DNA from: Okeania sp. SIO2B3
Lineage (GTDB): Bacteria; Cyanobacteriota; Cyanobacteriia; Cyanobacteriales; Microcoleaceae
Assembly: GCF_010672525.1 (NCBI RefSeq)
Contig: NZ_JAAHGH010000003.1
Location: 62,001 to 126,000 of the forward strand
Direction: 5' to 3'
Length of the DNA: 64,000 nucleotides
Shown: one piece after another, positions 3,072 through 51,761 of the stretch
Layout: each line of letters opens with the position of its first letter
How positions within the stretch are numbered: the first letter of the stretch is position 1
Notes under the pieces: generated by a model
What the model was told of the DNA's origin: nothing
Databases searched by the model: none
Seen by the model: only the letters and a program-made list of their open reading frames with translations
Translations under genes and position numbers: made by a program

Positions 3072-3324
3072 TATTTAATTTCACTTTATGGTTAAACCAG
3101 GACTATTTGACAAATCATATAGAGTATCTATTCCCTAATGCCGATTAATATCATAACCAAGCTTATGCAACAAACATCAAAAACATCACTACTGTCTTAC
3201 ATCAAGTCATTTTGTTTCAAATGTTTAACCTTCTGTTAAGAGTAGGATCTTTTGGGCATACTGCACTACTTTCTAGAAAAATTAATATAGAAATAAGGAA
3301 GTTAGAAGAAAAAATGCAAGGATG

Positions 3325-3537
3325 CTAGGAAATCTCAGGGTTATAGTAATCTTCAGATTTGACCTTTCCAACTTCATCTAGATCTTGATTTATACAACCT
3401 TGTTTTTGAGCATATTGACAAACACGAGCCCATAACTTTGCTTTAGTACCAGGTGGTCCAGAAGAAAACAACACTCGATCTCCACCTACTATTTTAACTA
3501 GACAGACTGGGCAAATTTCTTGCTGATTTTCTGACAT
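3325..3537 (-). CDS. Small Cys-containing conserved-type protein
   Basis: Product of 70 aa beginning MSENQQEICPVCLVKIVGGDRVLFSSGPPGTKAKL. A CPVC knuckle near residues 9-12 and two further cysteines (CQYAQKQGC) could bind a metal such as zinc; this is inference from spacing. The soluble, compact composition and the clean ATG start argue for a real gene. It lies between the coiled-coil protein and an 800-bp non-coding gap and points the same way as its downstream neighbour, 253 bp away. I recall similar short cyanobacterial hypothetical proteins but no named function. Confidence 0.65.
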   Translation of the reverse strand: MSENQQEICPVCLVKIVGGDRVLFSSGPPGTKAKLWARVCQYAQKQGCINQDLDEVGKVKSEDYYNPEIS

Positions 3538-4339
3538 TGTTAATTATTTACTGTTTAATCATAAATTGACTTATAAGTATATAACGCTTTTTATTCAATT
3601 TGGCAAATCTCATATCTAGTAGATGTAATATTTTAGGAGGAAGGCACATTGAGATTTTTCTGGAAAATCTCAAATTTCAAGTTATTCATTAAGTTGTTTA
3701 TTGGTATATAGAATTTACATTTGAAATGTGAATAGAGAATTAAATCTTTAAATAAAACAACTATAAATAAATCAAATTACTTTAAAATATTTATGTTCTC
3801 AACAATTCAAAAATAAAGTCATACTAAATCCTGTTGATCTGGGAGCTTTATTGCTAATGAGAAGGTAGGATTTAATAGACTTATGCCAGTTCCCATGCAT
3901 TAATGTTATACTTAGGTAATGCTTCAGTTATTAAGTAATCAACACAGGTAGAATAACCTTTTTGCTAATTTAAGCCAAGTTAATGTTAATTATTTTTATG
4001 TATGGGCGTTAACGATAGTTATGCGAAGCTAACGGCCGTTTGCTAAGGTAGAACTGCCGCTTTACATGTCGCGGAGCGTTAACGGAGTTGTGCGCTAGCA
4101 AAAGCCCCTACTCCTGTAGGGATGTTGCATGCAACGTCCCTACCTACTCCTCTACTACCCAGCTCGATAAAATGTAGAAAAGTTTTTGAGAAATGGTATT
4201 GTAGAAGGCCGACCAGTACCTTTTTATCAACATATCTTTTGATCAACATATTTGGTATAAAAAACAAAAAAAATTACCCTTTTTTCCTGATTTTGCCTAT
4301 GTATTCTATACAAGCATTCTAATAATTTGCATAACATAT
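3538..4339. other. Non-coding stretch with short palindromes
   Basis: No supported gene. It holds a GCGTTAACG/GAAGCTAACGG type short repeat near 4000-4090 and one 28-bp palindrome (next entry). The two overlapping track ORFs at 4079-4322 run across this palindrome and are rejected. Confidence 0.6.
4116..4143. repeat. 28-bp near-perfect palindrome
   Basis: GTAGGGATGTTGCATGCAAC followed by GTCCCTAC folds on itself around TGCA. Other copies: 19658-19685 and 21734-21761, and a partial one near 1237. The 21.7-kb copy carries compensating changes in both arms (AGGTT/AACCT). Confidence 0.75.
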
Positions 4340-5353
4340 ATGAATTACATAAATAAAATCAATCATTTACTTAAACCATCTGTTAATCGCACTAATTTAG
4401 TTATCGATCTATTTGCTGGATGCGGTGGTTTATCTCTCGGTTTTGAAGCCCAGGGATTTCAAACTTATGGTTTTGAAATGGATGCTGATTGTTGTGCAAC
4501 TTATAATCAAAATTTAAAAGATAATTGCGCTCAAATTACCCTAAATTCAGAAACAGAATTACCTCCTGGAAATGTAATAATTGGCGGTCCTCCCTGTCAA
4601 CCTTTTAGTGTTGGAGGAAAGCAAAAAGGTTTGAAAGATTCGCGAGATGGTTTTCCTATTTTTATTAATGCAGTGGCAAGATTGAAGCCGGAAATTTGGT
4701 TATTTGAAAATGTAAGAGGATTACTTTATCGTAATAAATGGTATTTGGATGAAATTACTCAAGCACTTCAATCTTTGGGTTATATTATTGAGGTTAAATT
4801 GTTAAATGCTGTTGATTTTGGCGTGCCTCAAAATCGTCAACGAGTGATAGTTATTGGGCATAAAGGTGAGTTTAAATTTCCTCAAGTTTTAGACAAAAAA
4901 GTAACTGTTGGAGAAGCATTAGGAGAAATGGCATTCCACGCGCCTCCAGAGTCAAAATTTCTCACTCCAAATATGGATAAATATGTGGCAAAGTATGAAA
5001 AAGCTTCTAGTTGTAAACAACCTCGCGACTTATATTTAGATAAACCTGCTAGAACTTTAACTTGTCGAAATATTTCTGCTCCTACTGGTGATATGCACCG
5101 GATAAAATTGCCGGATGGGAGAAGAAGACGTTTGTTATTAAGGGAGGCAGCAAGATTACAAAGTTTTCCTGACTGGTTTGAATTTTTAGGAAAAGAAACC
5201 AGTTGTTTTAATCAGATTGGAAATGCAGTTCCTCCTTTATTTGCTTTTTATTTGGCAGGAAGTATTAGGAGTTATTTAGAATCTGGGAAAAGATTCTCAC
5301 CAGAGGAAATTTCACAAAAAATTATTCCTGTACAATTATCATTACCTTTTTAA
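4340..5353 (+). CDS. DNA (cytosine-5) methyltransferase, type II
   Basis: Methylates cytosine C5 in a restriction site using S-adenosylmethionine. The 337-aa length is usual for type II m5C enzymes. Motif I is DLFAGCGGLSLGF (residues 23-35), motif IV GGPPCQPFS with catalytic Cys86, motif VI ENV (123-125), motif VIII QNRQRV (164-169), and motif X GNAVPP (294-299). The target-recognition region falls between VIII and IX (about 175-260) and is short. The gene is followed, after 228 bp, by a BsuBI/PstI-like endonuclease on the same strand, so this is the protective partner of a restriction-modification pair. All catalytic motifs are intact, so it should be active. The specificity is inferred from the partner, not read from this gene. 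Confidence 0.95.
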   Translation: MNYINKINHLLKPSVNRTNLVIDLFAGCGGLSLGFEAQGFQTYGFEMDADCCATYNQNLKDNCAQITLNSETELPPGNVIIGGPPCQPFSVGGKQKGLKDSRDGFPIFINAVARLKPEIWLFENVRGLLYRNKWYLDEITQALQSLGYIIEVKLLNAVDFGVPQNRQRVIVIGHKGEFKFPQVLDKKVTVGEALGEMAFHAPPESKFLTPNMDKYVAKYEKASSCKQPRDLYLDKPARTLTCRNISAPTGDMHRIKLPDGRRRRLLLREAARLQSFPDWFEFLGKETSCFNQIGNAVPPLFAFYLAGSIRSYLESGKRFSPEEISQKIIPVQLSLPF

Positions 5354-5354
5354 G

Positions 5355-5581
5355 CATTCAGCCGTCAGCTATCAGCTATCAGCTATCAGCTTCATTAGCT
5401 TAAATTGTATGGGTTAAAAACTAAAAACAAGTCTTTCTTGTGCTTCAATTTATGAGTGGAAAATGTAGTATAAGTTAAACGAGTTTTTACTTCATTCATT
5501 AAAAAGCTGTTTGCGTAGCATTCCGTAGGAAAAGCTGACTGCTAATAGCTTAATGCTTACTTACCTTTTTAAGAGATAAAA
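5355..5581. repeat. Short tandem AGCTATC repeats and a palindromic SDR between R-M genes
   Basis: Holds CAGCTATCAGCTATCAGC at 5368-5390 and a GTTTGCGTAGCATTCCGTAGGAAA element at about 5509-5532. The latter is one of about ten dispersed copies (see findings). The endonuclease start follows at 5582; GAGATAAAA just upstream could serve as a weak ribosome-binding site. Confidence 0.6.
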
Positions 5582-6598
5582 ATGCCTCAAATTCCCCAAT
5601 ATCTTACTAAGTCAGATAAGTCTAAACAATTTCAAAAGTTAATCAATGAAGCTTTATATATTATTAGTAAGTTTGGTGTACCTCTTGAGGGGATGACTCA
5701 AAGACGATTGGAAAGAATGGCAATGGCTTTTTTAGCTGTAGCCAACGTTAAGAAAACTAACGAATGGGGAAAAATTGATAATTCTCATGCTTTAAGAACT
5801 AGGGAAATTATTAGGTACTGGAATAATTATTTTAATGAACAAATATCTGAAAGTTCTTATGACGATATTCGCCGGAAAGATTTAAAATTAATTGTTCTTG
5901 CAGGAATTATTATTCCTAGTGCTGCTAATCCAAATTCAGCTAGAAATGATGGTACAAGGTCTTTTGCTTTAAATCCTAATTTTGCAAATTTAATTAAAAA
6001 TTTTGGTTCAGATAATTGGGAAGAAGAAGTAGAGATTTTTTTAGTAGATCGAGTCACTTTAGAACAACAACTTTCTAGTCAACGAGAAATAAGTTTAATT
6101 CCTGTTAATTTTCCTTCTGGTAAAGTCTTAAATTTTAGTCCTGGCAGACATAATGAATTACAGAAAGCAATTATTGAAAGGTTTTTACCTAGATATGGTT
6201 ATGGTGCAGAAATTTTATATGTCGGCGATACAGCTAAGAAGTTTTTACATTTAGAAAAAAACAAGCTGAAAGAACTAAACTTTTTTGAATTATCTGATGG
6301 AGAATTACCCGACATAGTAGCTTATTCAGAACAGAAAAATTGGCTTTATTTGATAGAAGCTGTTCATAGTTCGGGCGTAATTTCTAATGTACGTTTATTA
6401 GAATTGAAAAAATTGACAGAAAAATGTAAGGCTGACATAATTTTTGTCACAGCTTTTCTAGACAATAATACTTTTCGCAAGTTTGCTGCCGATATTGCTT
6501 GGGAAACAGAAGTTTGGATTGCTGATGCACCAGACCATATAATTCATTTTGATGGTGAAAAATTTTTAGGTCCTTATTCTCAAATAACTAATACTTGA
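5582..6598 (+). CDS. BsuBI/PstI-family type II restriction endonuclease
   Basis: Predicted to cut double-stranded DNA at the site protected by the upstream methylase. It has 338 aa, typical for the family. The N-terminal half (1-170) is the helical BsuBI_PstI N-terminal region with QRRLERMAMAFLA. The C-terminal catalytic half has YVGDTAKK (213-220), the PD of a PD-(D/E)XK core in LPDIV (242-246), and LIEAVHSSG (257-265), which are the signatures I recognise for this family. Members of known specificity recognise CTGCAG, so that is the predicted site. Classical PstI/BsuBI partners are adenine methylases, whereas here the partner is a cytosine-5 enzyme. I recall a PstI-isoschizomer system from Arthrospira (AplI) as a related cyanobacterial case; its methylase type should be checked. 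Confidence 0.9.
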   Translation: MPQIPQYLTKSDKSKQFQKLINEALYIISKFGVPLEGMTQRRLERMAMAFLAVANVKKTNEWGKIDNSHALRTREIIRYWNNYFNEQISESSYDDIRRKDLKLIVLAGIIIPSAANPNSARNDGTRSFALNPNFANLIKNFGSDNWEEEVEIFLVDRVTLEQQLSSQREISLIPVNFPSGKVLNFSPGRHNELQKAIIERFLPRYGYGAEILYVGDTAKKFLHLEKNKLKELNFFELSDGELPDIVAYSEQKNWLYLIEAVHSSGVISNVRLLELKKLTEKCKADIIFVTAFLDNNTFRKFAADIAWETEVWIADAPDHIIHFDGEKFLGPYSQITNT

Positions 6599-14549: not shown

Positions 14550-16529
14550 TCATCTGGTATAGCTAACAAAATGTTTACGCAGAGAATCATGGATAAAGCG
14601 ATAACGACCTCCAACTTGTTGAATTAATTTTCTTTGGGCAGCATATTTCAGAAATCTGGCATAGTTCCAGGGAATTAATCCATTTTGCCAGAGAATTAGT
14701 CTCAAGCTGAAGTGTTGAATACATGGTAGACCGCCAGTTGATAACCCTGTTATAAATCCCAAAGTTAAGCCATATATAAGTAAATTTTGCTTAAATCCAA
14801 ACAATATATCATCTTTTATAGAGTAGAGAATTAATAAAAAGAATGGGATAGCTATTACGGATGTAAACAAAGAATTTTTGAGTGATTCTCTAATCCCCTG
14901 GTTAGGAGTTTCTATTGATTTTATTTCTGTATTTAGGTTGTAAACCAGAGCAAAAACCACCCAGAAATTAGTACTCAACAAACATAGAAGTAAAACTCCA
15001 TAAAAAACTCCATAAAAAACACCGAAATTCTTCCACAAAATGATTCCAAAAATCGTTCCAAAAATTTCTCCAAAAATTATCGAATACATGAGCGCAGTAT
15101 AATCCTCACGCATCTGATCGTTTTCTTGCATAAGTAATTTTTTAATGTTTTTCCAAGAAAAATCTAATGGTTTTTGTGGTTTAATATTTTTAGTTGTTTC
15201 TACTTGCATTAAAAATAATCCTAAAATTAACCCAAAAAACAACCCTAGTTTTAGTCCAAATAATATCCCTAAAAAGAGACTTAAAAACAGCCAAAAAGTT
15301 AGCCCAAAAATCAAACCATAAATTAGTACAGAAATCAGAATATATAACCACTCTTGTCCAGAGAATAACAAACTAGGCTGCATATTTTCAATCATAAACT
15401 CTGTTTGTTTTTCAGCCTCTAACTGCCATGCTAAAAAAATTAACCAATACATGGTTTGCTCTGGAGAATAGAACAACTTTTCACGTTCTTCCACATCAGT
15501 AGGCTCTCGTTGTAAACATTCTTCAATATAAGCTGCAAATAATTGTTCTTTATTATAAATAGGCTCTCCTTGATAAGCAGTAACCATAATATTTAACAAC
15601 AAAGGAATTTTTGCTAACTCCCACATTTGAGAATTATTTTGAATCACCTCCCGCAAATCAACCTTACCCAAACTTTGTAAATAACGATAAATTTCCCCTG
15701 GTGTAGGAGACTGCAAACAATAAGCACCATTCAACTTTTTCAACCTAACATTTCCCTGTTTATATTCCTCATCCCGACAACAAACAACCAAACAAGTCCC
15801 AATATTCTCCCTGGTAAAATCATTAATTTTCTCAATACAAAGTTGCTGCCGGGCTATACCTAATTCATCCAAACCATCCAACAACGGCAGAATTTTCCTC
15901 TGAGTTAATAAACTTCTACTAAGTCGGCGATCGCTCATCCCATAAAAATCTTTTAAATACTGAATCAACCAATCTCCAATAGATAATTTATCCTCTTGCC
16001 AATTAGATAATTCAAAAATCATAGGAACAGGAGCATCAACATTATTTTCCGCCTCCTCAATTAACTCTTTTGCCAACCTCAATAAAGTAGTAGTTTTTCC
16101 CGCCCCAGGTTTACCCAAAATTAATAACTTACCATCTACATCCTGCCGATAAAAAACATCAATAATCTTAGTTTCAGGAGGTAGAGAAATTATCTTTTTT
16201 CTCTCAAATCTACCAACAGCTTCCTTCCGGGAAAACATCGGTAATTCTAAATATTGATTTATCAATAATTGATTTTGCTGTAGAGAATCTTCCAGTCGTT
16301 TAACAACTTCAACCTTAATTCCTTTCAGAAGTTTTGACCTAACTTTTGCCTCCCGGTCTTCCGGACGAAAAAATTTCAGAAAGCCTTGAAGAAAATCAGC
16401 AAAATTGACATTAATATATGTACCTTCATTGATAAAACCTGCAGCTTTAGCTTTATCTTTAACTTCCCTAATATTTTGACAACCAGTTCCAGTTAGACCT
16501 CTTTGGTCTAACTTATCTTTATTTCCCAT
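14550..16529 (-). CDS. NACHT-type STAND NTPase with C-terminal membrane region
   Basis: Predicted nucleotide-dependent sensor or switch of 659 aa. Residues 7-35 are a short tag (LDQRGLTGTGCQNIREVKDKAKAAGFINE) matching the N terminus of the upstream gene. Walker A GKPGAGKTTT lies at about 139-148, and Walker B LPLLDGLDEL at about 214-223, with the doubled acidic NACHT form. Residues 390-600 carry several hydrophobic segments with Phe/Gly/Leu runs (FWLFLSLFLGILFG, GVFYGVFYGVLLL), so the C-terminal half is probably membrane-embedded. A conserved-looking tail follows (WQNGLIPWNYARFLKYAAQRKL). Bacterial NACHT proteins include phage-defence NLR-like switches, but many cyanobacterial STAND proteins have no known role. 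The gap to the upstream gene is 205 bp, so co-transcription is plausible. Confidence 0.85.
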   Translation of the reverse strand: MGNKDKLDQRGLTGTGCQNIREVKDKAKAAGFINEGTYINVNFADFLQGFLKFFRPEDREAKVRSKLLKGIKVEVVKRLEDSLQQNQLLINQYLELPMFSRKEAVGRFERKKIISLPPETKIIDVFYRQDVDGKLLILGKPGAGKTTTLLRLAKELIEEAENNVDAPVPMIFELSNWQEDKLSIGDWLIQYLKDFYGMSDRRLSRSLLTQRKILPLLDGLDELGIARQQLCIEKINDFTRENIGTCLVVCCRDEEYKQGNVRLKKLNGAYCLQSPTPGEIYRYLQSLGKVDLREVIQNNSQMWELAKIPLLLNIMVTAYQGEPIYNKEQLFAAYIEECLQREPTDVEEREKLFYSPEQTMYWLIFLAWQLEAEKQTEFMIENMQPSLLFSGQEWLYILISVLIYGLIFGLTFWLFLSLFLGILFGLKLGLFFGLILGLFLMQVETTKNIKPQKPLDFSWKNIKKLLMQENDQMREDYTALMYSIIFGEIFGTIFGIILWKNFGVFYGVFYGVLLLCLLSTNFWVVFALVYNLNTEIKSIETPNQGIRESLKNSLFTSVIAIPFFLLILYSIKDDILFGFKQNLLIYGLTLGFITGLSTGGLPCIQHFSLRLILWQNGLIPWNYARFLKYAAQRKLIQQVGGRYRFIHDSLRKHFVSYTR

Positions 16530-16734
16530 AACCCATAATTTAGTTAAAATTTACCCCGCCCAAACTAACCAAAAAGTATAGTTAACTGAGCAGCTAACTA
16601 TACCTTCCATCATTAACAAATACCTGAAAAACTTATTTATAGCAGTTACCAAGGTTGTTAGGACATTCTCAAACTCTCAAATTTATTCACAGCAAGAGTT
16701 TAACCTTCTAACTTCTGACTTCTGACTTCTGACT

Positions 16735-17109
16735 TCAGCTACCTTCCTGCCATCCTTTTATAGCACTAACAACAAAAGCACCTACAGGATTATCTAAAAC
16801 TTTTTCAAAAGCTCCCAACAAACCAGCACTACCAGCACTAATTAATTTCTGTTTCAAAGTAGGGTCACTTTCTATCTTTTTAATAGCTTCCGTCGCCATA
16901 ATCATTTGTTCGGTAGTGGTATTAGTAGGATAGCTCTTGGAAAGCTGTTGCAAAATTTGTTGAATCTGTGCCACTGCCTCAGCTAAATTTTGCTCTTTAG
17001 CTTCATAAATTACCCCTGCAACTTTAGCATCGCCTTTAACTGTATCAATGCTTTGATGGCCTATTCCAACTAAGTCTTTTTGGTTGTAAGTATTTCCGCT
17101 TGATTCCAT
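16735..17109 (-). CDS. Small helical protein sharing an N-terminal tag with the NACHT protein
   Basis: Product of 124 aa. Residues 8-36 (YNQKDLVGIGHQSIDTVKGDAKVAGVIYE) align with residues 7-35 of the downstream NACHT protein at about half of the positions (for example Q, L, G.G, Q.I, VK, AK.AG, E). The remainder is a soluble helical domain, NLAEAVAQIQQILQQLSKSYPT then TTTEQMIMATEAIKKIESDPTLK and a terminal NPVGAFVVSAIKGWQEGS. I recognise this helical domain as a recurrent one in cyanobacterial pentapeptide-repeat and STAND-associated proteins; its function is unknown. The shared tag and tandem order suggest that the two proteins meet through it. That is inference. ATG 17109 is clean. Confidence 0.75.
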   Translation of the reverse strand: MESSGNTYNQKDLVGIGHQSIDTVKGDAKVAGVIYEAKEQNLAEAVAQIQQILQQLSKSYPTNTTTEQMIMATEAIKKIESDPTLKQKLISAGSAGLLGAFEKVLDNPVGAFVVSAIKGWQEGS

Positions 17110-23323: not shown

Positions 23324-24943
23324 ATGTTCAACGTAACAAAGATTTCCTCTTTACCCAAGCTCAAGTCCACATTACCAACAGGATTCGTATTTGGAGCTGC
23401 AATGGTAGTAGCGATCGCCAGTGCAACTGCAATTTATCAACTCAATCATATAACAGAAAAGAGTAGTAATGCCAGACTACTCTTAACTCAATTAAAAGAG
23501 CAAGTTAGCCGACTTAATTCTCTAGAATGGGAAGGTATTTCCAAAGGTGAAATAGATCAAAACTTAACTGAAGAACTTGCTGAAAATAAAGAAAATACCG
23601 ATGCAATTATTCAAGGAATTCAAGAACTTGAAGAACAGGACTATCTGAAAAATCTTTGGGAGCTATATACCAGTTATCAAGCCAAAATGGAAAGCTCCCT
23701 GGAGCTAATTGCTCAGAGAAAAATTCAGGAAGCAATAGAGATTAATGCCAATGAAATTGATGAAATTTATGATGAGCTATACGATGAAATTCAAACCTTA
23801 GAAAAAGGCTATATAGAACAGCATCAGCAAACCAGAAAACTTGCGGATCTTGGAACCACCTTTACCTTAATTATGGCAGCCCTTGTGATTGGTATTTTAT
23901 CCTACATATTTAGTAAAAGATTGTTGAACAAAAATCAGGAATTAAAAGTTGCCTTAATCAATCTTCAACAAGCACAAAATCAATTAATCCAACGAGAAAA
24001 AATGGCCGCGTTAGGACAACTAATTGCCGGAATTGCCCATGAAATCAATAACCCCCTCGGCGCAATTCAAGCCTCAGCAAACAACACCGATAAAGCTTTA
24101 AAAGAATTCCTTGATGAACTCCCCCATTTAGATCAATTTCTCAGTAGCCAAGAACAAAACCATCTTTTTCAACTCATCAATTGCGTACTCAAAAACAAAC
24201 CTTCTATTGCCTCTCAAGAAACTCGCGCCCTCAAGCGTAGAATTACAGCTCAACTTCGAGAAAATGACATTAAAAATGCTCGATATATAGCAGACCTCCT
24301 AGCAGACATGGGAGTTCCGGAAACCCCCGAGCTGTGGCTACCCATACTCAAGAGCGAACGGGGAGAATGGGCCACAGAATTGGCCTATAACTTAGCCTCC
24401 TCCTGTACAAACAATCAGATTATCCTCCGTGCCGTGGAACGCTGCTCCAAAACCATTTTTGCTCTCAAAAGCTACGCTCGTTTTCAGCCTTCTGGAAAGA
24501 AGCAGTTGGTCAAAGTAGTTAATGGCCTAGAAACAGTATTAGAAATTTATCATAATCAACTCAAACGTAATATCCATGTAATTCGAGACTATGAGGAAAT
24601 TCCTGATATCTGGGGATATACCGACGAACTGATTCAGGTGTGGACAAACCTAGTCCACAATGCCATTCAAGCCATGGAATCAGGAGGGACACTAACAATT
24701 GTCACTCGTAAACAGGAAAATGGCATTCAGGTGAGTATTCAGGACACCGGGTTGGGAATACCGCCAGAAGTACAGTCCAAAATATTTGATGCCTTTTTCA
24801 CCACCAAGTCAGCAGGTGAGGGAAGTGGTTTGGGACTCCACATTTGTCAGAAAATAATTAACAAACATCAAGGAAAGATTACAGTGGACAGTAAACCAGG
24901 ATATACATTATTCTGTATAGAGTTGCCTATTGGTTCTTCTTAA
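23324..24943 (+). CDS. Membrane sensor histidine kinase
   Basis: Autophosphorylating sensor of 539 aa. The first TM is at about 21-40 and the second at about 177-197; between them lies an acidic helical sensor domain of four-helix-bundle type. The H-box is GIAHEINNPLGAIQ with phospho-acceptor His239. An insertion of roughly 120 residues separates the H-box from the second dimerisation helix (VERCSKTIFALKSYARF), a variant I know from other cyanobacterial kinases. HATPase_c follows: N-box LVHNAIQAM (Asn446), DTGLGIPP near 473, and GEGSGLGLHICQKI. Two response regulators lie downstream on the same strand, so its partners are probably those. ATG 23324 has no strong ribosome-binding site. The 3' 280 bp are duplicated just downstream. 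Confidence 0.92.
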   Translation: MFNVTKISSLPKLKSTLPTGFVFGAAMVVAIASATAIYQLNHITEKSSNARLLLTQLKEQVSRLNSLEWEGISKGEIDQNLTEELAENKENTDAIIQGIQELEEQDYLKNLWELYTSYQAKMESSLELIAQRKIQEAIEINANEIDEIYDELYDEIQTLEKGYIEQHQQTRKLADLGTTFTLIMAALVIGILSYIFSKRLLNKNQELKVALINLQQAQNQLIQREKMAALGQLIAGIAHEINNPLGAIQASANNTDKALKEFLDELPHLDQFLSSQEQNHLFQLINCVLKNKPSIASQETRALKRRITAQLRENDIKNARYIADLLADMGVPETPELWLPILKSERGEWATELAYNLASSCTNNQIILRAVERCSKTIFALKSYARFQPSGKKQLVKVVNGLETVLEIYHNQLKRNIHVIRDYEEIPDIWGYTDELIQVWTNLVHNAIQAMESGGTLTIVTRKQENGIQVSIQDTGLGIPPEVQSKIFDAFFTTKSAGEGSGLGLHICQKIINKHQGKITVDSKPGYTLFCIELPIGSS

Positions 24944-25004
24944 ATTTTAAAATTTTTTATTTGTGGAGATTGAGTTAATCAAAGAATCACAATATAACTG
25001 AGAA

Positions 25005-25110
25005 TTACCAATTTTTTCTGCATAATTAATAATATCTTCCACAACTTCATTAAAATCTAAATTTTCCCCACCACTTCAAATTTTGCAACTATTAATATTG
25101 CCATAAAAAT
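25005..25110 (-). pseudogene. Scrap homologous to the 403-aa gene
   Basis: The tract AATATCTTCCACAACTTCAT (25031-25050) and its flanks match 20885-20990 within the 403-aa gene over about 100 bp with few differences. The rest of the gene is missing. The fragment lies between the kinase and the duplicated kinase tail. Confidence 0.75.
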
Positions 25111-25129
25111 ATTAAATTGGTTGTGGAAA

Positions 25130-25462
25130 AATCATCATACACCAAAAAATTATAACTGAACATAGAATTACTATATCATTGCCATTCAAGCCATGGAATC
25201 TGGAGGGACACTAACCATTGCCACTCAGAAACAGGAAAATGGCATTCAGGTGAGTATTCAGGACACCGGGTTGGGAATACCGCCAGAAGTGGAGTCCAAA
25301 ATATTTGATGCCTTTTTCACCACCAAGTCAGCAGGTGAGGGAAGTGGTTTGGAACTCCACATTTGTCAGAAAATAATTAACAAACATCAAGGAAAGATTA
25401 CAGTGGACAGTAAACCAGGATATACATTATTCTGTATACAGTTACCTATTAGTTCTCCTTAA
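25130..25462 (+). pseudogene. Internally deleted second histidine kinase
   Basis: 25180-25462 repeats 24660-24943 at very high identity and encodes the last part of HATPase_c (DTGLGIPP retained; GSGLGL changed to GSGLEL). The preceding bases TATAACTGAACATAGAATTACTATAT resemble the region just upstream of the intact kinase start (ACAACTGAAATAGGATTACTATAT at 23279). So this looks like a tandem kinase copy that lost about 1.3 kb from its start to the middle of the ATPase domain. The 89-aa track ORF lacks the H-box and N-box and cannot be a kinase. Confidence 0.8.
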
Positions 25463-27427: not shown

Positions 27428-28580
27428 ATGAAATCCATTAGAACCAAACTCAAATTAAATAATAAGCAGAAAACTCTGATGGCTCAACACGCGGGCTACT
27501 CTCGATGGTGCTATAACTGGGGTAAAAGGTTTGTGGAATGCTGCTTACAAGGATGGTTTCAAGCCAAACGCTTCCTGCGGAATGCTGCGCAAACGTAAGC
27601 TCAGAGATGTGTTTACCAATCACACAAAACCTCTTTATCCCTGGATGAAAAACTTGTCGTCTAAAGTTTATCAATATGCTTTTATCAACTTATCTGAAGC
27701 GTTTAAAAGGTTCTTTAAAGGATTAGGTAAATATCCAAGATTTAAGAAGAAAGGTAGGTCTGATTCATTTCCTTCGGAATGCTTCCCTACGGGATGCTAC
27801 GCAAACGCAAACACAATTGAAAACCAGTGGAAAGCCAATAGAATTAAACGGATGGAATCATAAATTACCTTTTATTGGTATGGTCAAAACTTATGAACAA
27901 GAGTGAGGCAACAGTTCAAAAAATAACTATTAGTAGGCAAGCAGGAGATTGGTATATTAGCTTTAGCTTTGAATTTCATCCTCACACCATACCCAAAAAA
28001 ACTGATGTTATAGGTGTAGATTTAGGTGTAAAAACCTTAGCCACTTTAAGTGATGGTAAGGTGTTTCCTAGCATAAAACCATATAGAAAAGCTGAGAAAA
28101 AACTGACTAAGTTGCAACGTCAAGTTAGTCGAAAACTCAAGTATTCAAAGAATTGGTACAAAGCTGTAATCAAGTTAGCGATCGCAGCATAGACGAGTAG
28201 CTAATATCCGCAAAGATGCACTTGATCAACTGACAACTTACGCAAGCCTTGAATCACGGCAGTGTTGTCATAGAAGATTTGAACGTTCGCGGAATGTTGG
28301 CTAATCATAAGCTAGCTAAAATCAGTTAGCAGATAGTGATTTTATGAGTTTAGGCGACAGCTTAAATATAAATGCGAATGGTACGGAAGTGAATAAGTAG
28401 TAGTAGATAGATTTTTTCCATCGTCAAAGACTTGCTCAAACTGTGGTCACGTTCAAGATATGCCATTAAATCTGAGAACTTATGATTGCCCTGAATGTGG
28501 CTTATCAATGGATAGAGATTTAAACGCCAGTATAAATTTAACAAATGCGGTCGGCTTGACCGTCAATGCCTGTGGATGAG
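27428..28580 (+). pseudogene. Broken TnpB (IS200/IS605 OrfB-type) gene
   Basis: RNA-guided nuclease relic of a transposon, read in several frames. From ATG 27428: KSIRTKLKLNNKQKTLM; then YPWMKNLSSKVYQYAFINLSEAF, IGVDLGVKTLATLSDG (RuvC Asp), VIEDLNVRGMLANH (RuvC Glu), a zinc finger CSNCGHVQDM...CPECG and DRDLNASINLTN. At least three frameshifts or stops. Two short palindromic inserts lie inside the coding frame at 27571-27594 (SCGMLRKR) and 27768-27809 (PSECFPTGCYANAN). No TnpA is nearby. Confidence 0.85.
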
Positions 28581-33460: not shown

Positions 33461-34613
33461 TCAGCATTCCCTTGCGCCTATCGGCGGCGCGGGGTCTGAC
33501 CGCTTGCGTCTGTCGCCGACGCGGGTTCCCATCCGCAAAATATTTACTGAAGCGTTTATGTCCCTGTCATGGTGAGCTGCACACTCTGGGCAATCCCACT
33601 CTCTAATACTTAGAGGTAATTTTTCTACTATGTGTCCACAATTAGAGCAACGTTTAGAACTAGGAAAATATCTATCAATCTTAATTAATTCCCGCCCATA
33701 CCATTCAGCTTTGTATTCTAATTGTCTGACTAATTCCCCCCAGTTGGCGTCACTTATTGCCCTTGCTAACTTATGGTTTTTAACCATGTTTTTTACCGCT
33801 AAATCTTCAACTACTATCGTTTGGTTTTCTTTGATTAGCTGAGTAGTTAGCTTGTGGGTATAGTCAAGCCTTGAATCTTTGATTTTTGCGTGTATCCTAG
33901 CTAATTTCAGCCTAGCTTTTTGATAGTTATTAGATCCCTTAGTTTTTCTAGATAGAGACTTCCCTGCTAACCTCAATTTTTTATGTAATTTCTGAAGATT
34001 CTTTGGATTGGCAATTTTTTCTCCATCACTTGTAGTTAGTAAACTGGTAATTCCTAAGTCAATACCTATTTGTTTCAGTACTGGTTTGATTTTTAAATTT
34101 CTAGTGTCGCTGACTCTCAAAGATATAGACCATCTGCCAGAAGGGTCAAGTTTTACAGTTATTGTGGTTGGTACACAGTTTTGTGGTAGTTGCCTACTCC
34201 ATCTTATAGGTAATGGTTCAACACATTTGGCTAGATAGACTTGACCATCTTTCCACTTAAATGCTGATGAGCGTGAACTCAGCACTACCACCATTCCGTT
34301 TTTTCTTGAAGTTTGGGTATTTAGCACGGCCACTAAAAAAATTAGAGAAGGCACTCTGTAAATGTCTCAAACCTTGCTGTAATGGTACACTACTTACTTC
34401 TGTAAGAAAATCTAAATCTTCCTGCTTTTTCCATAAAGTAAGCATAGCAGAAGTTTGCTTATACCCTACCCGTTCTTGTTTCTCATACCAAGCTTGGGTC
34501 CTTTGTGCTAAAGCTTTATTGTAGACCAAGCGTACACAACCCAAAGTCCTCCGCAACAGACTTTCCTGCTGCTTAGTAGGGTAAAACCTAAATTTGTACG
34601 CTTTTTCAACCAT
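33461..34613 (-). pseudogene. TnpB with a single frameshift (ORF pair)
   Basis: N-terminal ORF (34257-34613): MVEKAYKFRFYPTKQQESLLRRTLG to NGGSAEFT. The C-terminal ORF continues as SSAFKWKDGQVYLAK. The two frames meet at about 34275, where one extra base (ACG C TCA) separates EFT from SSAFKW, so one indel breaks an otherwise complete protein of about 400 aa. RuvC residues are intact: IGIDLGITSLL (Asp), VVEDLAVKNM (Glu), DRDINASVN (Asp). Zinc finger CSNCGHI..CPEC is intact too. It is the best preserved TnpB here. A GC-rich stem (CTCCCCTGCGGGAGAGCGCG, about 34695) lies at the 5' side and may mark the left end. No TnpA. Confidence 0.88.
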
Positions 34614-50582: not shown

Positions 50583-51071
50583 TTAGTAGAAACCTAAAGC
50601 TTCTTTAGTGCGACGTCCAACAATTCCATCTGGCCTTAAGCCATGATCACGTTGGAATGCTTTAACTGCATGCTTAGTCTTAGGCCCAAAATAGCCAGTT
50701 GCACGATGATGATGAAAATAGCCCATCATTCCTAGTTGGTGTTGCAACTTGGATACTTGATGTCCCCGACTACCATAGCTCAAATAATATCCACGACGGC
50801 GATGTCCCTTATAGGAAGCATGACGATAGCTGGGGCGATGATAACCTTTGCCATAATAGCGACCGCGACCATAACCACCACAAGGGTTCTTATGGTGACA
50901 TGCAGCAGCAGAATTAGCGGTCGCGCTAATAGCACCTAGAATAGTAGCAGCTGATAGAAGACCCATCATACCTAATGTAGATAACTTTTTCCAGTTAACT
51001 CCTTTAAAGGTAGGTTCAACTATAGAACTTTCTTCGGTGGTAGCTAGATGGGAATATGCTAGTGTTTCCAT
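50583..51071 (-). CDS. Secreted-type peptidoglycan-binding protein
   Basis: Product of 162 aa. N-terminal leader METLAYSHLATTEESSIVEP...NWKKLSTLGMMGLLSAATILG then ANSAAA. A His/Gly/Tyr/Arg-rich linker (GGYGRGRYYGKGYHRPSYRH) follows. The C-terminal 70 residues form a PG_binding_1 domain: SRGHQVSKLQHQLGMMGYF, TGYFGPKTKHAVKAFQRDHGLRPDGIVGRRTKEAL. So it probably binds cell-wall glycan outside the cytoplasmic membrane. A strong AGAGGAG ribosome-binding site precedes ATG 51071. The leader is shared with the next gene upstream, and the leader-plus-PG-binding arrangement is one I recall in other filamentous cyanobacteria. Confidence 0.85.
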   Translation of the reverse strand: METLAYSHLATTEESSIVEPTFKGVNWKKLSTLGMMGLLSAATILGAISATANSAAACHHKNPCGGYGRGRYYGKGYHRPSYRHASYKGHRRRGYYLSYGSRGHQVSKLQHQLGMMGYFHHHRATGYFGPKTKHAVKAFQRDHGLRPDGIVGRRTKEALGFY

Positions 51072-51350
51072 AACTCCTCTGATGAGTAATGTTTTACAAC
51101 TTTTTTTATAAGTGTCTTACCCACTTGCCTTATAGCATTTTGGGTTTCGTTTGAAGTGCGACACTCAAAAAAAGTAAATTTAATTTTGGTAGAACCTTAA
51201 TTTAGGCTATTAACAACTAAGGAAATCTTATAATTTCCCTAGTTGCATTACTAAGCTACCATGTTAGGTGGATTATTTATGCAGAATATTCAAAAAATTT
51301 TAAAAGTCCAAAACTTTAAGATAATTGAGGACTTTTAGACTATTAAAAAT

Positions 51351-51761
51351 TTAGTAGCAGTCACCACCGTAGCCACCATAGCCACCACCGTAACTACTGC
51401 CGTAGCGACCATAACCACCACGACGACCATAGCGACTGTAGCCACCATAGCTACCATAGGAACGGCTGTAGGAGCGGCTAACAACTTTTTTATAATAATG
51501 GCCTGAGCTACGACCATAGCTACCATAACGACCAGAACTACCGTAGCCACCATAGCCACCATAGCTACCGTACCTGCTACCACCATAGTAAGCAGAAGCA
51601 GAATCAGCAGTTACGTTCATTCCTACAGCTAAAGTAGCAGCGGATAATAAACCCATTGCTCCAACACTGGATAGCTTTTTGAAATCTACACAAGCAGTAA
51701 ACTCTTTGTTAGCAGAGTCTTCTTCGTTGAAAGCTAAATGGGAAAATGCTAATATTTCCAT
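51351..51761 (-). CDS. Gly/Tyr/Ser-rich secreted-type protein sharing the same leader
   Basis: Product of 136 aa. The leader MEILAFSHLAFNEEDSANKE...DFKKLSSVGAMGLLSAATLAVG then ADSASA aligns with that of the PG-binding protein. After it the protein is almost wholly low-complexity: YGGSRYGSYGGYGGYGSSGR and SYGGYSRYGRRGGYGRYG, ending GGDCY. No folded domain is visible. Such Gly-Tyr arrays occur in structural or adhesive extracellular proteins; a role in sheath or septal wall is inference. AGAGGAAT lies before ATG 51761. The tandem opposite-frame ORF at 51335 is a shadow. Confidence 0.75.
   Translation of the reverse strand: MEILAFSHLAFNEEDSANKEFTACVDFKKLSSVGAMGLLSAATLAVGMNVTADSASAYYGGSRYGSYGGYGGYGSSGRYGSYGRSSGHYYKKVVSRSYSRSYGSYGGYSRYGRRGGYGRYGSSYGGGYGGYGGDCY

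Follow-up and report, generated by a model that had tools for sequence, protein, structure and literature searches.

In bacterial amyloid-signaling (BASS) and BELL systems, a two-gene cluster encodes an NLR and a neighbor that share a short signaling motif, which is located at the N-terminus of the STAND/NLR protein and at the C-terminus of the effector; the BELL effectors contain a hydrophobic transmembrane helix and the clusters occur mostly in filamentous bacteria, including cyanobacteria (Dyrka 2020, via PMC7889193 and PMC8086366). The BASS motifs are 21-40 aa in length (PMC12261475). In EAD and bDLD systems, one module is present on both the switch and the effector of neighboring genes, with neighboring copies being the most alike, in the company of caspases, TIR, TRADD-N and STAND proteins (PMC7159879, PMC8195603). 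In the fungal NWD2/HET-S and PNT1/HELLP pairs, a prion-type motif at the N-terminus of a NACHT or NB-ARC receptor is matched by an adjacent cell-death protein (PMC7889193). Finally, the bNACHT antiphage proteins are NACHT NTPases of the bacterial STAND type (Kibby 2023, via PMC10907252; EruA model NF058535).

The gene pair analyzed here is located in a stretch of 64,000 nucleotides from Okeania sp. SIO2B3 (hereafter "the window"), in a genome of 10.0 Mb in 249 contigs, and encodes a small protein with a C-terminal four-helix domain (CTH) and a NACHT protein (Table 1). It is best read as a variant of the known BASS receptor-effector pairs, with both proteins tagged at the N-terminus. As in the BASS/BELL clusters, a motif at the N-terminus of the STAND protein is common to the product of the adjoining gene, and the tags of the CTH proteins and their partners, 25-45 aa, are near the BASS length range. 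Moreover, homologs of the window NACHT protein occur with upstream, C-terminally tagged neighbors (L146-L148, L156, and probably L183 and L187) that we call BELL-like, an assignment made by position and a hydrophobic N-terminus, with no Pfam match. Filing the window pair itself under BELL was rejected, because the tag of the small protein is N-terminal (residues 9-36 of 124) and its four-helix CTH lacks a helix of transmembrane length (maximum 19-residue hydropathy 1.06).

The resemblance to the EAD and bDLD systems includes both the sharing between neighbors and the domain company. However, the EAD module is a globular domain, whereas the module shared in the window is a short tag modeled with low confidence, with a globular CTH on one side only. 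Assignment to the EADs was rejected since the CTH profile matches only the small protein of the pair and the tag has a pLDDT mostly below 50. No Pfam EAD model was among the matches of the two window proteins at E up to 1 and no EAD appeared in the list of 25 families obtained for 33 relatives; a search for EAD1 in the Okeania genome gave no match, and the control likewise matched nowhere. In the fungal systems, a HeLo or HELL domain that targets membranes precedes the motif, and no homology of these to the window pair was seen. Unlike the bNACHT proteins, the window NACHT protein scored below the cut-off of every NCBIfam model. The sequence-only reading had described the pair as an undescribed two-gene candidate. 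This holds in part: clusters of an NLR and a neighbor with a common motif are known as BASS/BELL, but no description was found of the CTH module or of an N-terminal tag on both partners, with the proviso that Dyrka 2020 may list the CTH module.

The gene pair and its shared tag

The two ORFs, which were called mechanically, are adjacent on one strand, as had been proposed, with the NACHT gene located 205 bp downstream of the gene for the small protein. The tag of the NACHT protein, DQRGLTGTGCQNIREVKDKAKAAGFINE, precedes the NACHT domain and aligns with the tag of the small protein, NQKDLVGIGHQSIDTVKGDAKVAGVIYE, at 14 identical residues out of 28 (BLOSUM62 score 58-59). Thus, the previously noted gapless match at about half of the positions stands, while its residue numbering was off by one.

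Table 1. Features of the gene pair, with positions in the window.
Feature	Position	Strand	Basis
Small protein, 124 aa (tag and four-helix C-terminal domain, CTH)	16735..17109	-	ORF; CTH profile E 3e-37; AF2
Tag of small protein, residues 9-36	17002..17085	-	Ungapped match to NACHT protein 8-35; pLDDT mostly <50
CTH domain of small protein, residues 39-124	16738..16995	-	97 related ORFs
NACHT protein, 659 aa, with C-terminal multi-helix membrane region	14550..16529	-	Pfam NACHT, 1.6e-8; homologs at E up to 1e-40 in 107/196 genomes of the order
Tag of NACHT protein, residues 8-35	16425..16508	-	Match to small-protein tag; absent from most homologs
NACHT NTPase core, residues 136-233 (Walker A GKPGAGKTT, Walker B LPLLDGLDE)	15831..16124	-	Pfam PF05729; sequence
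Hydrophobic segments of NACHT protein, about residues 392-577	14799..15356	-	Several 19-residue windows with hydropathy >1.6
Intergenic terminator-like hairpin (possible attenuator)	16570..16609	-	Consensus match only

A chance match was rejected, given the recurrence of tag matching in related loci and a p-value of about 5e-6 for the 60-residue N-termini (10,000 shuffles). The score for the whole proteins was weaker (p about 2e-4 by shuffling), and it is therefore the N-terminal position of the match, together with the related loci, that makes it significant. When the tag was compared to 800 ORF ends from other loci, the maximum score was 35, as compared to 58 for the window pair, and of the 1422 pairs of non-overlapping ORFs in the window, only two, both obviously paralogous, scored higher. 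A search of the same genome with the 100 N-terminal residues of the NACHT protein, tag included, recovered the protein itself and the adjoining small gene (E 1.7); the one further match, at E 0.55, was weak and unrelated and lay outside the tag. Common upstream DNA was ruled out as a source of the match (score 14 versus a shuffled mean of 14.6).

In 46 matched tag pairs, synonymous sites are saturated and the amino acids are kept (pS 0.78, pN 0.22); taken by itself, the window pair has a weak, intermediate codon signal (pS 0.48, pN 0.31). The low synonymous divergence of the pairs at L016 (pS 0.16) and L022 (pS 0.08) shows that tag DNA has been copied recently in some loci. NACHT cores that are 84-87% identical bear unrelated tags, each of which is matched by its own adjoining CTH protein. 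Such swaps on near-identical NACHT proteins, which follow the neighbor, and the preservation of the tags as protein at saturated synonymous sites confirm the proposal of a real pairing tag rather than a chance resemblance. They also constitute a natural specificity experiment on how bacterial immune receptors choose their outputs.

Terminator-like sites, identified by consensus match only, number two in 1 kb, versus 0.5 in shuffled sequences. If the intergenic hairpin acts as an attenuator, it could possibly hold the NACHT protein below the level of the small protein. An inverted repeat, AGTTAGACCTCTTTGGTCTAACT, is located within the coding sequence of the NACHT tag (window 16491-16513).

The CTH domain and pairing across cyanobacterial loci

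The AF2 model of the small protein, built from a shallow alignment of 33 rows, has helices at residues 27-57, 65-80, 83-104 and 108-123, with a pLDDT of about 85-94 over residues 41-90 and of 70-88 beyond; the low values over the tag suggest that it is disordered in the model. No enzymatic or transmembrane features were identified. A Foldseek search of the CTH model against the PDB gave no usable fold relative (best E 1.9), a sequence profile search of the PDB gave weak helical-repeat noise, and CTH is covered by no model in Pfam, NCBIfam or PADLOC, searches in which NACHT was the only domain above the curated cut-off in either window protein.

About ten further proteins encoded in the Okeania genome contain the C-terminal part of the small protein, with different upstream regions (pentapeptide/membrane, caspase-like with nSTAND1, and others). 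The CTH profile matched 97 ORFs among the window, 12 loci of the same genome and 80 GTDB loci, the last of which were cyanobacterial without exception. In 90 of 93 cases, CTH, a four-helix unit, is located at most 12 residues from the C-terminus; a variable tag rich in Gly, Asn and Tyr precedes it. It was present in 36 of the 292 genomes sampled across the phylum and on cyanobacterial plasmids, and none was found in the phage records searched. Fusions were observed to pentapeptide repeats, CHAT, AbiTii, TPR/Macro/CHAT and a region with a weak match to DpnII/MboI.

For each CTH gene, the partner was selected without regard to score as the largest ORF on the same strand that starts at most 300 bp downstream. 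The downstream ORF shared the CTH tag in 31 of 50 loci, with no match in the other 19, a rate that is not a phylum-wide frequency since the 80 GTDB loci were those with the greatest similarity to the query, and the loci overlap in ancestry. The mean tag score was 66.2, whereas 5000 permutations of the partners gave at most 49.1. After reduction to 13 tag clusters, of which six were paired and seven were not, the margin was narrow (mean 53.2 versus a maximum of 52.5 in 20,000 permutations). What was a single weak resemblance thereby becomes a countable, recurring cyanobacterial system. STAND proteins make up most of the partners; a NACHT domain is present in 20 of 31, and many of these are relatives of the window NACHT protein (36-48% identity); the others contain AAA_35, NB-ARC/TPR, iSTAND with trypsin, TIR, CHAT or TRADD-like domains. 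The Okeania genome contains a second pair, at L016, whose matched tag is a different one. Because related pairs in many cyanobacteria carry different yet matching tags, the tag very probably serves as a lock-and-key that joins the NACHT protein and the small protein.

In two loci, the tag is C-terminal on a DUF6232 protein and N-terminal on an adjacent small CTH protein: L025 in the Okeania genome (5460-6327), and L241 on plasmid B of Trichormus variabilis ATCC 29413 (3290-4276; CTH gene AVA_RS27845, DUF6232 gene AVA_RS27850). Part of the system is thus testable in this well-studied strain.

A profile of the window's own tag matched 23 places in 18 genomes, mostly CTH proteins. Here, the outcome for the tag as a mark of paired genes was mixed: adjacent tagged pairs were found only at the window, at L226, where a CTH protein is located beside a tagged TRADD-like/glycosyltransferase protein, and at L229, where the neighbor is a truncated ORF, while in most of the 18 genomes the tag is on CTH proteins with no tagged gene close by. 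In one of the genomes, a CTH gene and an NB-ARC/TPR gene both bear the tag and are located on separate contigs (L230, L238); L240, from a genome within the same family, contains decayed remnants of both window genes. The tagged protein at L226 (5224-7365) consists of a TRADD-like domain and a glycosyltransferase of the starch-synthase type.

In the NACHT protein, the Walker A and B motifs were confirmed and are largely invariant in 17 homologs; the model, from an alignment of 17 rows, has a mean pLDDT of 59, fair in the core and poor in the tag and the membrane part. Alignments to homologs mostly start past about residue 55, and the tag is thus not common to most of them. Detailed examination covered 62 NACHT-family ORFs, partly chosen for short N-termini; about 18 of these have a tag-matched upstream gene, 13 with a score of at least 50 and five weaker, a few of the 18 representing similarity outside the tag (e.g., L184). 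Besides the BELL-like proteins, the upstream partners include CTH proteins (L143-L145), further small helical proteins that are tagged at the N-terminus (L154, L157) and, at L158, a caspase (Peptidase_C14) tagged at the C-terminus. The membrane region of the NACHT protein is constant in the family with all of these partner types, and its length varies strongly. The partner NACHT membrane proteins at L070 and L066 have an extra C-terminus, and two proteins of the partner set have a Peptidase_S26 (signal peptidase) match.

A proposed receptor-partner module and its alternatives

We propose that the pair is probably a receptor-partner module, in which the NACHT protein would be a nucleotide-driven switch that gathers the 124-aa partner by tag templating. 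Once triggered, the NACHT protein would oligomerize so that its N-terminal tags cluster; these would serve as a template for the corresponding tag of the small protein, with stacking probably of a beta-type (amyloid-like) kind, and the CTH helical bundles would then gather at the assembly. We infer both the recruitment through the tag and its amyloid nature. At other loci, pentapeptide/membrane, CHAT, restriction-endonuclease-like or AbiTii regions precede the tag-CTH unit, which would hence recruit such effectors, while at the window locus the bare tag-CTH protein may itself be the recruited adaptor or output. An output role of CTH is a guess, since the domain has no recognizable fold relative and no segment of transmembrane length. 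The domain company suggests an immune function; the trigger would be invaders, and the outcome most likely membrane damage or cell death. A broader reading, plausible without being probable, is that CTH may be an undescribed, phylum-wide cyanobacterial adaptor domain, always with an interchangeable homotypic tag. Its modular wiring would pair effectors (pentapeptide/membrane, CHAT, nuclease-like, AbiTii) by tag type with STAND, TIR, TRADD-N and glycosyltransferase proteins, in several insulated immune circuits per genome.

All of the pairing evidence would fit equally well if the small protein capped the resting NACHT protein and was released on activation, with the tags pairing once and no polymer growth. 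The intergenic hairpin, which could make the small protein more abundant, and a CTH bundle with no transmembrane segment are also consistent with such docking and autoinhibition. Yet the tags look disordered and are rich in Gly and Asn, unlike a heterodimer interface, and the same tag is found on many other proteins distant from any tagged switch gene; furthermore, the tags are alike on both sides, which favors homotypic assembly. We therefore consider docking unlikely.

A similarly low probability is given to the suggestion that the membrane region of the NACHT protein executes the response and that the small protein is an adaptor or stabilizer. The several hydrophobic segments of the region and a small protein free of enzymatic or transmembrane features agree with this suggestion, but a region that is kept with CTH, BELL-like, caspase and helical partners alike, at highly variable length, behaves as a constant part of the receptor, and two homologs have an additional signal-peptidase-like C-terminus. 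Hence, the membrane region as the executing part, as put forward in the sequence-only reading, is not favored, and the exchangeable neighbor is more likely to be the output arm. That the shared N-termini are functionless leftovers of a segment duplication is very improbable, and pure recent duplication was rejected as the cause of the match: the tag copying at L016 and L022 would agree with it, but equal pS and pN are predicted over many independent pairs, contrary to the saturated synonymous sites observed, and the partner permutations did not reproduce the matching. The preferred reading thus remains tag-templated gathering of the small protein by the NACHT switch.

Several other features were observed in the window. 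About 8 kb from the gene pair, positions 4340-6598 encode a Type II restriction-modification pair, with a C-5 cytosine methylase and a BsuBI/PstI-type endonuclease. ORFs similar to transposase OrfB, apparently fragmentary or frameshifted, are located at 27531-28192 and 33461-34613. Positions 23324-25462 contain a histidine kinase gene and, after it, a short ORF (25193-25462), a near-exact repeat of the C-terminal ATPase part of the kinase. At 50583-51761, two adjoining small proteins have a similar N-terminal leader (score 130) and unlike C-termini, one of which is a peptidoglycan-binding-like end.
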